Source: Rozella allomycis CSF55
Taxonomy: Eukaryota; Rozellomycota
Assembly: GCA_000442015.1 (NCBI GenBank)
Contig: KE560951.1
Coordinates: 1-22,912, forward strand
Reading direction: 5' to 3'
DNA: 22,912 nucleotides
In this document: piece by piece, positions 4,144 to 14,871 of the stretch
Layout of the letters: each line of letters starts with the position of its first letter
Numbering within the stretch: the first letter of the stretch is position 1
Notes under the pieces: generated by a model
Told to the model about the DNA's origin: nothing
The model's database searches: none
What the model saw: the letters and a program-made list of their open reading frames with translations, nothing else
Made by a program: the position numbers and the translations under genes

Positions 4144-4205
4144 GTAAGGCCAAATTCGTATGAATCCTTTCAGTGCTAAATTGGTCGAATTTTCCTAAAA
4201 TTGTT

Positions 4206-5714
4206 ATGAAGGACATGTTAATTAGGAACCTGAAGAAGGGACTATGGGCGTCCATTTTTATAGCATTTGTCACTTTTGCTATATCTTATGCCAGTTTGAA
4301 ATACAGAGGAACTCATAAACTGGATCGTACATTTCAGTCACTTGTAAACGTTACTGACAAGCAAAAGTACTTTGAAAGAGAATGCCTTAAGCTTCCTAAA
4401 TTGCAGTACAGTGAAGACGATAAAAGAATACCATCATGTCCATTTATCTCGGGTGATACGTATAGATCATTCTGCCATCACGTTTTTGATGACTCTACGC
4501 CTCCTTCAGTTTACTATTACAAAGCGGGTCGAATTAAGAAGAATGAATTAGTGTTTGTTGCTACACATATCTTGGATAAAGTCTCACCTGCTCTTCTTCA
4601 AAATGCCAAAGAACCATATATTTTAATCACATCTAACAGTGACGATTCCGCGCCAAATAATTTTCAAGACTTACTCAAATCTGAAAAGTTAATTGCTTGG
4701 TTTCCTCAAAATGCTGATATGATTCATGAAAAAGTTTATCCCATTCCAATTGGTTTGGCTAATTACATGTGAGATCACGGAAACTTTCATTTAATTAATG
4801 AGTTGTCGGCAAAAATAAAAAGATTTGCTGATAGGAAAACGCTTTTGTGCATAAACTTTGGGTATAGTGAGTCATCAAGAAAAAATATTGAATCAAAGTT
4901 TCGTGGAATGAAAAATGTAAAGTTTTTACAAAGTAGAGTGGATTTCAAAGANAACTTACTCAAATCTGAAAATTTAATTGCTTGGTTTCCTCAAAATGCT
5001 GATATGGTTCATGAAAAAGTTTATCCGCTTCCTATTGGATTGGCCAATTACATGTGGGATCACGGAAACTTTCATTTGATTAATGAGTTGTCAGCAAAAA
5101 GAAAAAGATTTGCTGATAGGAAAACGCTGCTCTATATAAACTTTGGGTATAGTGAATCATCAAGAAAAAATATTGAAGCAAAGTTCCGTGGAATGAAAAA
5201 TGTAAAGTTTTTACAAAGTAGAGTGGATTTCAAAGAATATTTGGAGCATATGATGGATTCAAAGTTTGTTTTAAGCCCTAGAGGTCATGGGATTGATTGC
5301 CACCGAAGCTGGGAGTCAATGATCATGGGTGCCGTTCCTATAGTTTTATCTACGGCGATAGACGAGGCATTTAGAAATACTAAAAGGGCAATAATCTTAG
5401 ATTCATGGGATGAGTTGAGTGTAGAATTATTGGAGTCGTATGATCCAGGTGAAGATATTATTCCNCAACGCTAGAGGTCATGAGATTGATTGCCACCGAA
5501 TCTGGGAGTCATTGATCATGGGTGCCGTTCCTATAGTTTATCTACGGCGATAGATGAGGCATTTAGAAATACTAAAAGGACAATAATTTTAGATTCATGG
5601 GATGAATTGAGTGTAGAATTATTGGAGTCGTATGATCCAGGTGAAGATATTATTCCTGACGTTCTCTACGCGAAATTCTGGTATGACGAAATTAATTCAA
5701 AAAGAATTCCTTAG
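4206..5714 (+). CDS. exostosin-like type II membrane glycosyltransferase, broken by assembly joins
   Basis: The product looks like a Golgi glycosyltransferase: a short cytosolic tail, one membrane anchor (about residues 12-30, FIAFVTFAISYASL), a lumenal stem, then an exostosin-like domain. The domain carries YILITSNSDD, VYPIPIGLANYM and the strong motif SPRGHGIDCHRSWESMIMG..PIV, typical of this superfamily's nucleotide-sugar site. Acceptor and donor cannot be inferred. Ns at 4952 and 5465 each sit between near-identical segments: 4669-4951 with 4954-5236, and 5278-5464 with 5471-5656. Counting each once gives about 343 aa in one frame. The first copy has TGA (4770-4772) where the second has TGG. 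The third segment has a one-base deletion in a T run. I read this as merged alleles or paralogues, not one decayed gene. The upstream GTG at 4173 is not needed as a start. AATAAA is at 5721-5726. Confidence 0.75.
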
Positions 5715-5776: not shown

Positions 5777-8233
5777 TTATGATTTAATTACTGTCACGCA
5801 ATCTGTAAGCATACCCGTAAACACTTCAAAGAGCTTGGTCGAGGAAAATTGCGAATTGCTTATTTTGACATACTTGATGCCAACTTTAAGTATCGCTGCC
5901 ACAATAATCTCAACTTTTTCAACGCAGTCAATCTCAACAGTGAAGGAAATGTCAATGTGCTCTATTGGAGATCCTCTCAATGAATTAATCAGCTCGTGTA
6001 ACTGATCTGAAGACATTTCGTTTCTCGATATATTCAAGTACTTTATTCTTTTTAATCTTAATCCTAATGTCTTCCAAATTCCAATATCTGGAGTCCGAAA
6101 TGCATTTACTAGCGTAAGCCTTTCAAGTTTGGAATCTTCTAACCCAGAAATAAAGGAAAAAGATGCTTTGGAATTCATATTCATTCCAGTTAGACTGAAT
6201 TCTTCAAGATTGCTAATTATTTTTCCCAACATTTCTGCATGGTCTGGATCTAATCTATTCAAACGATCAATAAAAATTTGGCCAAAGTCAAGTTTTTTAA
6301 TATTTGGGGCGATTTGTTGAAGTAAATGAAGGAGTCCCATTTTTGTTGTTGCCATTAAATGAAGATAAAGTTCTTCAATCTGATTATCGCCAAGATTAAT
6401 CAAATGTTTTTGAGCAACAACTCTTTCAAGACTCAACTTTTTGATTTTGGAATTTGATATTTCAGATATTATGCTTCCAACAAGCTCTGGATCAGACATG
6501 CCCACAATGAAAAGATGTTCTAAATTTTTGAAAGAACCAGAGAAGAATGTCTTATAATATTCAGAAGAATTATCAACGCAGTCAAAAAACATTTCATGAT
6601 GACAAGAGCATTCACAATTGCATGCCTCATTATGTACATCTTTGCAAACACAGCTACTATCATTTTTGTTGTCTATTTGTCCAGAAAGATGAAGTTGGGA
6701 AATGTCCAAAGATGTTATTTTCGTACTTGACAAGTGAGACCCCAGTATTCTTAATTGATCCAGCGCCATTTTAGCATTCCTTAAATTCAATATCTTGATA
6801 TTCCTAAAACTTTTAAAAAGATTATTCATTTTATAAAGTGACACTTTCTCAAAATTACTGCCAAACAAATCAAGAGAATTTATAGCATCAAATTTCAGCA
6901 AGGAATCAGCCAACAAACTGGCTCCAATGTCATCAAATCGAATATGGTGAAGGATAAGATTTTCAATTTTGTCAAGCTCGCTTAAATTTCTAATAATGGA
7001 AAATTCACTTCTATACACATCAGCGTCGATATTGAAAATGAACCTGCTGGTGCTGAAGAATGGCTGAAAATATTTCAAGGTATCAAAATACAGATCAATA
7101 GAAGAGAACACAACATCAATCTTGATATTCTCCCAAAATTCCTTTTCCCAATTGGCTCTTATGTAAAATTCCTCCAAATTTCCAATGTGGGCGTATACGC
7201 GAAAGTGATAGTCAATTGAATCATGCGTCATCTCTAAAGCTTGGAAAAGCGATAGCACAGAGCATAAATAAGCAAAGTGCTCTTTGTAAATAGGATTCTC
7301 TTCTAAATACCTATAGACTTGTTGGCCGGTAAAATTTTCAAAATTTACATTTTTCATTTTCATTAGTTTGAATGGATTAGGATAATTGTCTAAATTTGAG
7401 GCAGGTGTTTTAAAAGCTAAAACCTTATCTGGCAAAACAAACGTGTCATCGTTAGCGATAGGCCTCATATCACGAGCTGGAGAGGCAGAAGTTTGGGAAT
7501 CAACCCTATGGGTGACAGCCACAGACTTTGCTCGAGTTCCAGAGCTTGATTTTGTCTGCTCTGGCCTTGAAAGAGCTACAGATGTAATTTTGGTCTGCGT
7601 CGACTTTGAAATCGTTTCCGGTTTCTGTGCAGGTCTTTTAGGGACTAATCTTACATTGGTCTGCGTATATTTGGAATGAGTTTGAGGTTTAACATTTGTC
7701 TGTGCAGGATTTTGATTTTCAGAATTGACATTTGTATGCACAGGTTTTAAAACGCCAGATGTAAATATGGTCTGCGTAGACCTTGAAAGTTTTTGAGTTG
7801 TCTGCGTAGACTTTGAAAATGTTACATATCTGACATTGGTCGGTGCATGTACTACAGATCTAACTATGGTCTGCGTAGACATTGAAAGAGATTTAGGTTT
7901 AGCATTCGTCTGCGTAGGTCTTGAAGTTGTTTCATGAGTCGCACTGGGCTGGCCGATTGTTTCTGTCTCAGCGTTGGCATTAGACGTCCCGCCATTCTTT
8001 TCTTGACCTATTTCTATTTCCTTGCTCTTTAGAGTCCCGTTCTCTTTTTCTTTTTCTTTTATAGCCTCGTCCTCTTCTTTACTTCCATCCTCGATGTAAC
8101 ACCACTTTCCATCATTATACACCTTGGCAGGGTAACTTCCATCATTTACTTCCCTCAAACCAATAAAACGTTTGTGAATACCAGTGTAAGATATGATTTT
8201 GAAAAGACACAACAATAGAATTAGAATATTCAT
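5777..8233 (-). CDS. secreted leucine-rich-repeat protein with six TQT (LC8-binding type) motifs
   Basis: A single-exon 818-aa protein. Residues 1-18 (MNILILLLCLFKIISYTG) form a signal peptide. Residues 51-80 are charged (KEEDEAIKEKEKE). Residues 100-250 are disordered, with TQT at 107-109, 120-122, 143-145, 153-155, 190-192 and 212-214, mostly as [KR][SY]TQT, plus degenerate AQT, EQT and SQT copies. From about 290 to the end there are RNI-like leucine-rich repeats (LDLFGSNF, LNLRNAKMALDQL, LDISQLHLSG, LNISRNEMSSDQL). A Cys/His-rich insert CVCKDVHNEACNCECSCHH lies near residue 525. [KR]xTQT is the known anchor for dynein light chain LC8, normally cytosolic or nuclear. The start is fixed by the signal peptide. 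It converges on the glycosyltransferase gene; AATAAA is at 5762-5767 on the minus strand. No orthologue is recognised, and host targeting is inference. Confidence 0.85.
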   Translation of the reverse strand: MNILILLLCLFKIISYTGIHKRFIGLREVNDGSYPAKVYNDGKWCYIEDGSKEEDEAIKEKEKENGTLKSKEIEIGQEKNGGTSNANAETETIGQPSATHETTSRPTQTNAKPKSLSMSTQTIVRSVVHAPTNVRYVTFSKSTQTTQKLSRSTQTIFTSGVLKPVHTNVNSENQNPAQTNVKPQTHSKYTQTNVRLVPKRPAQKPETISKSTQTKITSVALSRPEQTKSSSGTRAKSVAVTHRVDSQTSASPARDMRPIANDDTFVLPDKVLAFKTPASNLDNYPNPFKLMKMKNVNFENFTGQQVYRYLEENPIYKEHFAYLCSVLSLFQALEMTHDSIDYHFRVYAHIGNLEEFYIRANWEKEFWENIKIDVVFSSIDLYFDTLKYFQPFFSTSRFIFNIDADVYRSEFSIIRNLSELDKIENLILHHIRFDDIGASLLADSLLKFDAINSLDLFGSNFEKVSLYKMNNLFKSFRNIKILNLRNAKMALDQLRILGSHLSSTKITSLDISQLHLSGQIDNKNDSSCVCKDVHNEACNCECSCHHEMFFDCVDNSSEYYKTFFSGSFKNLEHLFIVGMSDPELVGSIISEISNSKIKKLSLERVVAQKHLINLGDNQIEELYLHLMATTKMGLLHLLQQIAPNIKKLDFGQIFIDRLNRLDPDHAEMLGKIISNLEEFSLTGMNMNSKASFSFISGLEDSKLERLTLVNAFRTPDIGIWKTLGLRLKRIKYLNISRNEMSSDQLHELINSLRGSPIEHIDISFTVEIDCVEKVEIIVAAILKVGIKYVKISNSQFSSTKLFEVFTGMLTDCVTVIKS
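7590..7935 (-). repeat. degenerate coding repeats (TCTGCGTAGAC on the plus strand)
   Basis: Variants of the plus-strand string GTCTGCGTAGACNTTGAAA recur at irregular intervals, encoding S(K/R)STQT on the minus strand. The DNA similarity suggests fairly recent internal duplication of the motif block within the LRR-protein gene. Confidence 0.7.
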
Positions 8234-8235
8234 CT

Positions 8236-8270
8236 GTGGCTTTTCTAATTTTTTCAATCAGAAAAGCCAC
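8236..8270. promoter_or_regulatory. perfect 11-bp hairpin directly upstream of the LRR-protein start codon
   Basis: GTGGCTTTTCT and AGAAAAGCCAC are perfect complements separated by 13 nt. They begin 3 nt before the ATG of the LRR gene (8231-8233, minus strand), so in mRNA they would form a stem in the 5' leader. A role in translation or as an operator is inference. Confidence 0.55.
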
Positions 8271-8299
8271 CGAAGGATCTGCCTTAAAGTTCAAATTTA

Positions 8300-10462
8300 T
8301 TAAACTGGAAATAATGACTGCCTGCGTTCCTTTTCATGTTTCGCTTGAACCTGTTTGAAGTACGAGATTAAATCTAGAAATTCCTTTGTGGTTTTAGTTT
8401 TCTTTTCAACTGGACTAGAGAGTGTTGGCCTGAACTTAGCGTCTTATTAGATTTTTACTTTGATAAAAGAGATACTGATTGTACACTGTTCAACCTATTT
8501 CTCAATGTCGCAAACGCGCTACTCTGCGGCAGCAACATTAAGAGACCGTAGAGGGATTTATACAAGAAAAAATACTTATCAGGCTCGAGCAATTGGAGTC
8601 TTAAAAATGAGAATATTGGAGATTCAATTAGTTGCACCAATTTGTCAACTTGCACCAAGAAATTAACTGTGATTTCATATTCGGAAAATGTCATGATCAA
8701 GTAGTAAGCATGCTCATACATTTGAGCTAAAAAGCAAAGGGCCAATGTCGAAACTGGGTTATGGACCCATGATTTATACAAAGCATGGAATAGAGAAATA
8801 TTATCCTTCAAATCCATAAATTTCAATTTCCGCCTTAAATCAACAAGTTCCGTTGCAGTCAAAAGTATTATTGTCAAATGCTGAACAATAAAACTAGCAA
8901 ATTCTAAATCCTTATCTATATTTAACGTAGATCATTACATTTTCAATTTCTAAAAATTCAGAAAACGAACAAAACACTTTTTCTGGTTGCAATGAAATGC
9001 AGAGTTGTCGAATAATTAAAGACCCCTTTGTTTCCAAAAGTTTTCTGTCGGATTTAAATAGTTCTAATAGTTGAATTATGAAATTGTTAAATGATTCCCC
9101 AGAAAACGACGATGAAATTTGTGAAAGTAGGTGAAGCGTCTTTTTAATTGCCTCCTCAGAACAGTCAGACAATGACTTTAATAGCGACATAAATAATTTA
9201 TCATCCTCACAAAATACCTTTCCAAAAACCTTAAAGAGCCTTACTTTTTGTGGACACTTCAAGTGAATCATCAAAAGCCAATCCAGAGATGCAAGTCTGG
9301 CAGATTCATTATCTTGAGTAGCAAATTGGACTAACGTTCGAGTCAAAGCGTCATATCCTATATCCTCATTCGAGCTTTGAATGATTTGAAAAAGTTTGCT
9401 GTTGAGCGAAGTCCCAATTTCTCTTATGGCAAGTGATGAACAAGACATGGAACGTACTATCGCGAATAATGCTTTGTCTGAAAGGAAAACAATCGACGTC
9501 GAATCTATTTTGATGACTGTCTCAAGCCACTGTAAAGCTATTTCCCGGGGTAGATCATCTAATTTATAGAAATGGAAAAGCAAACCTTCCATAGTGGCAA
9601 AATCCAAAAGAATTACGGAGACCCTCCGCATGTCTAAATCCGTTTTTTCTCTCATGGAAATCGCAGATAAAAATGCGTCGAGACATGACCTTGTCATGGT
9701 TCTTATATCTTGAGATTCATCAGACAGGTAGCGAAATAAACCATCAAGAAATTCTGGAAGAAATACAATGAAATTTAATTCTGGAAGAGAATGAAGAAGA
9801 CAAACCCACGAAACTAAAAATTGACGGGCATTTTTCATTTGAACAAATATCCTCTCCTTTATTAAAGGAATAAATCTTTTTCTTTAAAAAATTCATATTA
9901 CTTTTCAACATTGAATATAGGCTTTTCATTTACAATATCCCGTAACAGTCGATCCAAAAGTTCGGCCCCATTTCGAACAGATAATTCGACGTCTGTACAC
10001 AACTGTATTCAATATGAATATTATATTTACTTTACATAGGCAGTCAAAAATTTCATTGAAATAGATTAGAATGTTATGTCTCGTTGTTTTTGCAATATTA
10101 TACATCGCTTCGCACGCATAGTATCGTACTCGGCTATCTTGATCTGAAAAACAAGCTAGTATGGGTGGACATATATCTTTCAATATTTGATCCGCATCCA
10201 TTAACACGCATAATTAAGATATTACTTCTCCCATTGCAATAGCGACCGCTGCAAGACCAATTAGGCCTCCATTTCTAGAATTAGGGAAGACTGAAAATGC
10301 AAATTCTTGAGACAAGTATTCAATTGTCTGCTTAATTTTTGCAATATCCCTATTTTGCCACATATCTTTAACACTTCTCTCAACTTCAATTGCAGCAATT
10401 TTTCGTTTTTCATATAGTTTGTCACTCAAATTCTTAAATAATACTTGCTGCTCACTTGCCAT
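8300..10462 (-). CDS. VAC14: VAC14, scaffold of the PIKfyve/Fab1-Fig4 complex, six exons
   Basis: VAC14 is a HEAT-repeat scaffold on endolysosomal membranes that holds the PI3P 5-kinase and the FIG4 phosphatase. Introns lie at 10199-10225, 10003-10030, 9876-9901, 8911-8938 and 8430-8458 (26-29 nt). Spliced length is 2025 nt, 674 aa (human 782). Landmarks: SDKLYEKRKIAAIEVE near the N-terminus, NSRNGGLIGLAAVAIAMG, RVRYYACEAMYNIAK, NGAELLDRLLRDIV, ARQFLVSWVCLLHSLPELN, FLPEFLDGLFRYLSD, RKLLETKGSLIIRQLC, SWVHNPVSTLALCFLAQ, VNFLVQVDKLVQLIESP, YGLLMLLPQSSAFATLRNRL. The last exon encodes the conserved tail YFKQVQAKHEKERRQ. The acidic linker of the animal protein is missing. The first intron ends in TG. 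The stop overlaps AATAAA. A pyrimidine tract plus CAG lies 17 nt before the ATG. Confidence 0.96.
10199..10225 (-). other. 27-nt intron 1 of VAC14 with a non-canonical TG 3' end
   Basis: The 5' end is GTAATA, the 3' end GTTAATG, followed by exon GAT GCG. It is phase 0. Removing exactly these bases aligns AMGE-DADQILKDI with the family with equal length (19 residues from the G of MGE to ACF, as in human). The next AG gives the wrong frame and deletes conserved positions. Reading through meets a TAA after three codons. Confidence 0.78.
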
Positions 10463-13734: not shown

Positions 13735-14871
13735 ATGCGACATATATTTTTTCTAGTTATACAAACGTTTCTAATATTTTCCATAGCTCAACCTATCTTA
13801 GCCAATGGGCAAGGCGTTGTCCAGTCCACATTTCCTGGTCACAATATTCCAACCGGTCAGCAAAGGGCAAATCACCCTCTAGGAACCCAACAACCAAAAT
13901 TAAATCCTTCCGACCAAAAGCAAACTAATTGTATAACTCTTGTTGATCAAGCATCAATCATATCGTTATCCGACACTGGCCCAACATTCACAAAATCATG
14001 TGATCCTTCTTTGGTATCTCGCCAGTTAGATGGATGCAATATTCACCAATTACTTGACAATGGAATGTTAGGCTGCTATCAATGCGCACCTCAATTGATC
14101 CCCGCTATCGTCAATAGAATTTTTGGTCTTTCACAAGTTCTTCAAACACCCTCATGTATTGACCAGTTTGCAGCCGTACCTGGGTGTGTGGTATACAACG
14201 AGGTTAGAACACTTTACCGATATCAGTGTGCACAATGCCAAACATCGTCAATGCGAATAGTAGAGCTTGTGAATGGAGCTCTTAGTCAGACAATATGCGC
14301 AGAAACGTTAGATATTTCTGGAGGACAGTGGTCAAGCTGCACCAAAGTGCGACCGGCCATGTGGGGAGAGAGCAACTTCAAGTTCATTTGCGTAGACGAC
14401 AAGGCGGCTACCAGTGTACGATTACTAGTGAACACTCCAAAGAATGATAATGATTCTAAAAGTCCTGATAACAACCAAGCTGCATCTCAATCCTCGCCAG
14501 ATGATATCTCATGCTTGTTTGGATCTTCAAAAGGAATTCTACAATTCGATGGTAACTGTAACGCCCCAACTACAGGAAACAGTTGGATAAAAAATGAATC
14601 CAACAACTTTTGTCTTGCTTCATCCTTGAATTTCTGCTTATCAATTTCAAATATCAATGCAAATGATAAACAAGCAGATATTGTACTAGGACCACCAAGC
14701 ACTGATAACACATTCCGCTTTGGTGCATCTGGAAAACTATTTTGCTATGACAGAGAAAATCAAATTGTAGGGTGCTTTGGGATAAAGAAAAATGCCCCGA
14801 TTCTCCTGTTGGGAGATGATTTAGATACAATTGACAAATGTACCAGCCTTACAACAGCGCAAAATCAATAA
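13735..14871 (+). CDS. secreted Cys-rich protein, unknown
   Basis: A single-exon 378-aa protein. Residues 1-24 (MRHIFFLVIQTFLIFSIAQP then ILANG) form a signal peptide. A Gly/Gln/Pro-rich stretch follows (residues 25-62), then 19 cysteines, including GCYQCAPQ and YQCAQCQ, suggesting a disulfide-rich extracellular fold in two halves separated by an Asn/Ser/Asp linker (about residues 232-258). There is no membrane segment at the C-terminus and no GPI-like tail, so it is probably soluble and secreted. I recognise no family. The stop codon lies within AATAAA (14867-14872), and the FITM2 stop on the other strand is 10 nt away. Confidence 0.82.
   Translation: MRHIFFLVIQTFLIFSIAQPILANGQGVVQSTFPGHNIPTGQQRANHPLGTQQPKLNPSDQKQTNCITLVDQASIISLSDTGPTFTKSCDPSLVSRQLDGCNIHQLLDNGMLGCYQCAPQLIPAIVNRIFGLSQVLQTPSCIDQFAAVPGCVVYNEVRTLYRYQCAQCQTSSMRIVELVNGALSQTICAETLDISGGQWSSCTKVRPAMWGESNFKFICVDDKAATSVRLLVNTPKNDNDSKSPDNNQAASQSSPDDISCLFGSSKGILQFDGNCNAPTTGNSWIKNESNNFCLASSLNFCLSISNINANDKQADIVLGPPSTDNTFRFGASGKLFCYDRENQIVGCFGIKKNAPILLLGDDLDTIDKCTSLTTAQNQ

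Follow-up and report, generated by a model that had tools for sequence, protein, structure and literature searches.

What is encoded by a reading frame of Rozella allomycis CSF55 that lies just behind the VAC14 gene, is publicly annotated as a part of it, and combines a hydrophobic N-terminus, six TQT motifs and a leucine-rich repeat (LRR) domain? The window analysed here is a stretch of 22,912 nucleotides (contig KE560951.1 of assembly GCA_000442015.1, positions 1 to 22,912 of the forward strand). The open reading frame (ORF) occupies 5777..8233 on its minus strand, runs from an ATG at 8233 to a stop codon at 5777-5779 as one open frame of 818 amino acids, and translates with zero ambiguous residues. 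A preliminary description had seen in its product a secreted LRR protein of an intracellular parasite, carrying an array of anchors for the dynein light chain LC8. The premise about the organism holds, R. allomycis being an obligate intracellular parasite of Allomyces and not free-living (PMC5701793; this and the other papers cited are drawn on in excerpt). The coordinates and layout of the ORF are firm: its product opens with MNILILLLCLFKIISYTG, continues through a long region modelled with low confidence, at first Lys/Glu-rich and then Ser/Thr-rich with the six TQT motifs, and closes with a long alpha/beta repeat, an LRR domain of the ribonuclease inhibitor (RI) type. What is new, on sequence comparison, is the proposal that this is the most divergent member of a nine-locus Rozella LRR family.

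The LRR domain and its Rozella family

The RI-type LRR domain (approximately residues 444-818; 5780..6904, minus strand) is defined by structure modelling and fold comparison. The AlphaFold model of the 818-residue protein, built on a four-sequence alignment, has a mean predicted local distance difference test score (pLDDT) of 46.6 and a predicted TM-score of 0.44. The LRRs have block pLDDT values of 55-88 from approximately residue 560 on, with values of 55-72 for residues 471-520 and a less confident Cys-rich loop; residues 18-300, in turn, score below 50 and are almost devoid of secondary structure, and residues 287 to ~440 make up a weak helical zone that is mostly also below 50. Foldseek and VIA-align place the domain with ribonuclease inhibitor, NLR, RanGAP and F-box-LRR chains (a shared LRR fold is no proof of function). 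The window protein matches no Pfam family, even at an expectation value (E) of 10; the large LRR domain of the preliminary description is nevertheless sustained by the model and the fold comparison.

The family comprises the window locus, three loci in tandem on C171, and the loci on C201, C191, C115, C111 and C21. The preliminary description had proposed looking for paralogues in the genome, and eight other loci were found. Searched against the genome, the window protein matches itself and one C21 locus (E 1.2e-5), the C21 protein matches eight further segments, the window included at E 9.8e-6, and queries from C201, C111 and C191 complete the nine. Pairwise BLASTP aligns the C21 protein with approximately residues 304-763 of the window protein (E 2e-12), and a profile of the eight paralogues aligns with residues 298-709 (probability 96.6, E 5.5e-10); the window protein is the most divergent of the nine. 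Additional family fragments lie at C21:3446-3616 and C201:154856-155095, and a match confined to the LRRs was found on C77 (E 0.0096). Database relatives are all from Rozella (four proteins with the family profile and one more with the C21 query, among the ~8000 candidates sharing most words that each search scored, a scope that leaves room for distant relatives elsewhere). A sequence search of the PDB with a C171 paralogue returned no match at E 10. No earlier account of the family was found in the literature, which was searched in part and without the genome paper (James et al. 2013).

Two family loci have peculiarities of their own. The three tandem copies at C171:40001-49500 include two that are interrupted by N or by stop codons, so that part of this array may be pseudogenic or a misassembly. 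The C191 locus has its two LRR pieces on either side of an ORF of 158 residues (L026:2683-3156) with a match to PF00646 at E 0.0056 and 17 bits, below the cut-off; it is either a nested gene or an assembly mix-up.

The N-terminus, the public gene model and the F-box-like head

The putative signal peptide (residues 1-18; 8180..8233, minus strand) is delimited by hydropathy and the structure model. The most hydrophobic 10-residue stretch of the first 25 residues exceeds that of all 763 internal 25-mers, and the model has a helix at residues 2-16 (pLDDT 81 over residues 1-10 and 55 over 11-20). The preliminary description had called this signal peptide clear. The hydrophobic run and the helix speak for it, but Lys12 interrupts the run and no obvious cleavage site is seen, so that "putative" is the better word. 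An ATG followed by a hydrophobic run is found at seven of the nine family loci, the window among them (the N-termini of the C115 and C21 loci are unreadable, being obscured by N or lacking a start). In four close family copies the ratio of nonsynonymous to synonymous substitution (dN/dS) is 0.08-0.47 over the first 17 codons (six pairwise comparisons, each based on few changes) and 0.24-0.30 over the whole readable genes; translation of the run and constraint on the genes are therefore probable. Behind the run lies the Lys/Glu-rich stretch (residues 47-80; 7994..8095, minus strand), assigned by composition and modelled at pLDDT <35.

A free-standing start conflicts with the public annotation. 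A protein search with the whole ORF returns one match, a 1035-residue vacuolar protein 14-like protein of R. allomycis CSF55, which on comparison with the DNA joins VAC14 (window 8233-10462, minus strand) to the LRR ORF across the VAC14 stop codon (8300..8302, minus strand). Were this model right, the ORF would form the C-terminal part of a VAC14 fusion that stays in the parasite's cytosol, within reach of Rozella's own LC8. The existence of the model and the mere 66 bases that separate the VAC14 stop from the ORF argue for this, as does the presence of LC8 in the genome: there are two Dynein_light matches, and the one on C177 aligns nearly residue for residue with a solved dynein light chain 2 (67 residues, E 4.3e-42), by which measure Rozella has an LC8 of its own. 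(In a survey of the fungal flagellum, DYNLL1/2 is handled as an orthogroup that has many paralogues; PMC13358043.) On the other hand, the model as read requires an intron with the donor GTTTAA to take out the VAC14 stop, drops 17 in-frame residues from the open frame, and quits the frame of the ORF after residue 458 of 818; it would also put a hydrophobic helix in mid-protein. Searched against the PDB at E 1e-5, the fused model gave no match. VAC14 proteins, as we take it from the human one, normally end near the stop at 8300. Since the paralogues repeat a free-standing ATG and hydrophobic run, the fusion model is judged to be false, and a role of the ORF as VAC14 tail is very improbable.

Six of the seven loci with an ATG and a hydrophobic run go almost straight on to an F-box-like segment, the head, and then to the LRRs. 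Among the eight other heads, P[WF][ED] begins seven, and Ile12 and Leu16 are invariant in all. A profile of the heads searched against the PDB finds the F-box of Cdc4 best (E 0.04) and FBXW8 sixth (E 0.57), and the family heads are F-box-like and perhaps derived from an F-box. A proven F-box they are not; that assignment was rejected, the scores being weak throughout. In the window protein the corresponding segment (residues 299-345; 7199..7339, minus strand), found by family profile and BLASTP, lacks the LPxE start; its sequence, FENFTGQQVYRYLEENP, aligns with the head by position, and the protein has no Pfam F-box match. The RI-type LRRs are alignable with those of the paralogues and the ATG and hydrophobic run are present. 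Because the head lies ~280 residues downstream and without LPxE, however, the window protein counts as a derived relative by its LRR domain and not as a typical member; we read its gene as having lost the head motif and gained an insert.

The reading that we prefer takes the window protein for a fast-diverged member of a Rozella-specific family of secreted F-box-like LRR proteins, a member that serves as a binding scaffold. It is held tentatively, as somewhat short of an even prospect, and several observations weigh against it. Only one of the eight heads matches the Pfam F-box PF00646 (E 0.0085; 16.4 bits against a cut-off of 20.5), and 13 of the 15 listed PDB matches of the head profile are not F-boxes. 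The window head is modelled at low confidence and, taken by itself, fails to match the profile of the family heads (probability 1.3). In the fold comparison F-box-LRR chains rank no higher than NLR or RI chains. Three of the four paralogue queries (C201, C111 and C191) do not list the window. Finally, the public model of the C201 paralogue, O9G_001065 (P0004; locus L025), starts without the hydrophobic run. As a separate observation on that model, its short first exon omits the hydrophobic N-terminus, and internal residues are skipped too.

The TQT array

Approximately ten decayed units of the type SKSTQTNV, assigned by alignment by eye and codon counts, occupy residues 102-230 (7544..7930, minus strand). 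Six of them keep TQT, with Gln at 108, 121, 144, 154, 191 and 213 (spacing 13, 23, 10, 37 and 22), and four have the form [KR][SY]TQT, the other two being RPTQT and MSTQT. The count and the prevailing form given in the preliminary description are thus accurate, and so, as far as the model goes, is the placing of the motifs in a disordered region: residues 101-230 have pLDDT 20-24 and no secondary structure, which, the alignment being shallow (four sequences), points to disorder but does not prove it.

Shuffling of the residues yields a mean of 0.12 TQT for the whole protein and 0.41 for residues 81-260, and six are reached in none of 100000 shuffles in either case; the test presumes independent residues, an assumption that fails for this array. 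The first Thr (T-1) is encoded by ACG in all six motifs, a codon used for 6 of the 27 Thr that lie outside the array; for Gln, CAG is used in all six motifs and for 4 of the 17 Gln outside. Judged by these codons, a single DNA unit has been copied to give the motifs, and their number therefore reflects neither chance nor six independent gains (the latter were considered and rejected, the codons being identical). When ten units chosen by eye are aligned on the second Thr (T+1) and counted by script, T+1 is kept in 10/10, Q0 in 8/10, T-1 in 6/10, Ser at -4 and Lys/Arg at -3 in 7/10 each, and Asn at +2 in 5/10. Where Thr is kept at T-1 it is ACG (6/6), where Gln is kept at Q0 it is CAG (8/8), and T+1 uses three codons. 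This codon pattern is, by its form, the trace of a decayed repeat. The three synonymous codons at T+1, with no replacement, are the one hint of constraint. Selection guarding the anchor is otherwise not clearly signalled, since T-1 is no better kept than Ser -4 and TQT has been lost in 4 of the 10 units; repeat conservation thus does not show selection for LC8 binding. Tandem Repeats Finder reported no array in the region. Protein and DNA searches of the genome for the array list only the array itself, which was not found at any of the eight other family loci; such a non-match does not show rarity.

How good, then, are the sites as LC8 anchors? The preliminary description had taken the protein for a candidate effector, a secreted multivalent ligand that draws in or ties up the dynein/LC8 of the host, here Allomyces. 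An intracellular parasite (PMC5701793) with six TQT in a stretch modelled without structure would suit that role, and the upstream flanks (apolar residue at -5 in 4/6, Ser at -4 in 6/6, basic residue at -3 in 5/6, with [KR]xTQT fitting five of the six sites) come close to the phage-selected LC8 consensus (PMC3078936). The downstream side fits less well. Pro, Asp and Glu are favoured at +2 and certain residues disfavoured at -2 and +2 (PMC6607443), and the sites have, in order, N, I, T, I, N and K at +2, with none of the favoured residues. By those rules site 144 has no disfavoured residue and site 213, with Lys at +2, is nearly clean, but the other four are penalised: 108 for Pro at -2, 121 and 154 for Ile at +2, and 191 for Tyr at -2. 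In 9.97 Mb of genome, a degenerate pattern for DNA encoding SK[x]TQT matches three times: twice here, ~200 bases apart, and once in a 104-residue open frame on C132; the reversed control pattern gives two, so that three is no numerical excess. The spacing is uneven and, as a decayed DNA repeat, the array keeps its anchor no better than its flanks. Moreover, the phage-selection study confined its search to cytoplasmic disordered segments, where the known sites lie (PMC3078936). LC8 binding by the predicted sites is plausible, but the specific role of host LC8/dynein ligand is unlikely.

The main rival to the preferred reading makes of the same features a Rozella protein that is surface-bound or lumenal, with the Ser/Thr-rich region as an O-glycosylated stalk and TQT as an accident of repeat expansion. 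Ser and Thr make up 32% of residues 81-250; the uneven spacing and identical anchor codons of the units agree with such an origin. A cluster of seven Cys in 25 residues of an LRR loop (residues 528-552; 6578..6652, minus strand) and six N-glycosylation sequons would likewise suit a lumenal or surface location; by sequence comparison the cluster is missing from those paralogues whose sequence extends that far. Against this, no internal segment matches the hydrophobicity of the N-terminus, and hence a membrane anchor is not evident; proteins of the RI-type LRR and F-box-LRR classes are, besides, mostly intracellular. This alternative appears rather doubtful. The seven-Cys loop is in itself suggestive of a metal or disulphide cluster.

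A candidate host-acting family and its known counterparts

The preferred reading, in which the window protein is the scaffold-like member of a secreted family of F-box-like LRR proteins, supposes a common plan of signal peptide, F-box-like head and RI-type LRR domain. Rozellomycota grow in their hosts as naked protoplasts (PMC5701793), and therefore a protein exported by the secretory pathway could come into contact with proteins of the host. The family proteins would most likely exit the parasite, their LRRs binding host proteins, and the heads of typical members may connect to Skp1/cullin ligases of the host. The window member, its head without LPxE and separated from the signal peptide by the ~280-residue, probably disordered insert, would act as a multivalent scaffold for binding, in which the TQT repeats serve as weak sites of docking or dimerisation. 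Protoplast growth, the host-exposed families of microsporidia and the plan of the F-box-LRR effectors considered below make the Rozella proteins candidates for action in the host, and we infer an effector role on that basis. A bolder version, in which Rozella, a lineage branching close to the base of the fungi, exports the family into its fungal host and, in one member, the ligase head decayed while repeat expansion created a multivalent LC8 ligand, so that a former substrate receptor became a scaffold clustering targets on host LC8 or dynein, is quite improbable.

Two other genes of the window may be noted. An exostosin GT47-like gene lies at 4173-5700 (PF03016, E 7.4e-8; its 32.5 bits are below the cut-off of 33.4), in near-identical tandem pieces with N that are either an assembly artefact or a recent tandem copy. 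At 13735-14871 is a second probably secreted protein of 378 residues, with many Cys and no Pfam match.

Rozella is a fungus-like relative of the microsporidia. The family, if it is what we propose, would be the Rozella counterpart of the LRR and RING families that microsporidia expose to their hosts, and it would point to genes for testing. Correcting the gene start has a value of its own, since for both the window gene and O9G_001065 the public model hides the probable signal peptide.

ASCIZ/ATMIN is a known case of an intrinsically disordered protein with several anchors for LC8 (PMC5963919, PMC10046861). That protein is an intracellular transcription factor, whereas the window protein is probably secreted, its units are decayed, and none of its six sites has an acidic residue at +2. 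Microsporidia have lineage-specific families, regarded as host-exposed, which are rich in signal peptides and include some with LRR or RING domains (the latter in NemLGF2; PMC5423893, PMC4928854). The Rozella family resembles them as a lineage-specific, LRR-bearing family rich in putative signal peptides in a related intracellular parasite; it differs in its F-box-like head, which the excerpts of those papers do not mention for microsporidia, and no homologue outside Rozella was found among the ~8000 scored candidates. The nearest known kind, by analogy, is the secreted F-box-LRR effector. The GALA/RipG proteins of Ralstonia solanacearum have an N-terminal F-box followed by LRRs and act in the host (PMC4617103, PMC4312480); they are bacterial, type III-injected and marked by a GAxALA motif, and the likeness is one of plan, with no homology claimed. 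The SSGP-71 proteins of the Hessian fly (Mayetiola destructor), with an N-terminal F-box and ~13 LRRs, likely act in host cells; binding to Skp proteins has been reported for them, and among the named members there is one without the F-box (PMC4617103). The Rozella heads, in contrast, are only F-box-like, and the window member adds its long TQT insert; what SSGP-71 and the Rozella family have in common is the domain plan of an N-terminal F-box or F-box-like segment followed by LRRs.
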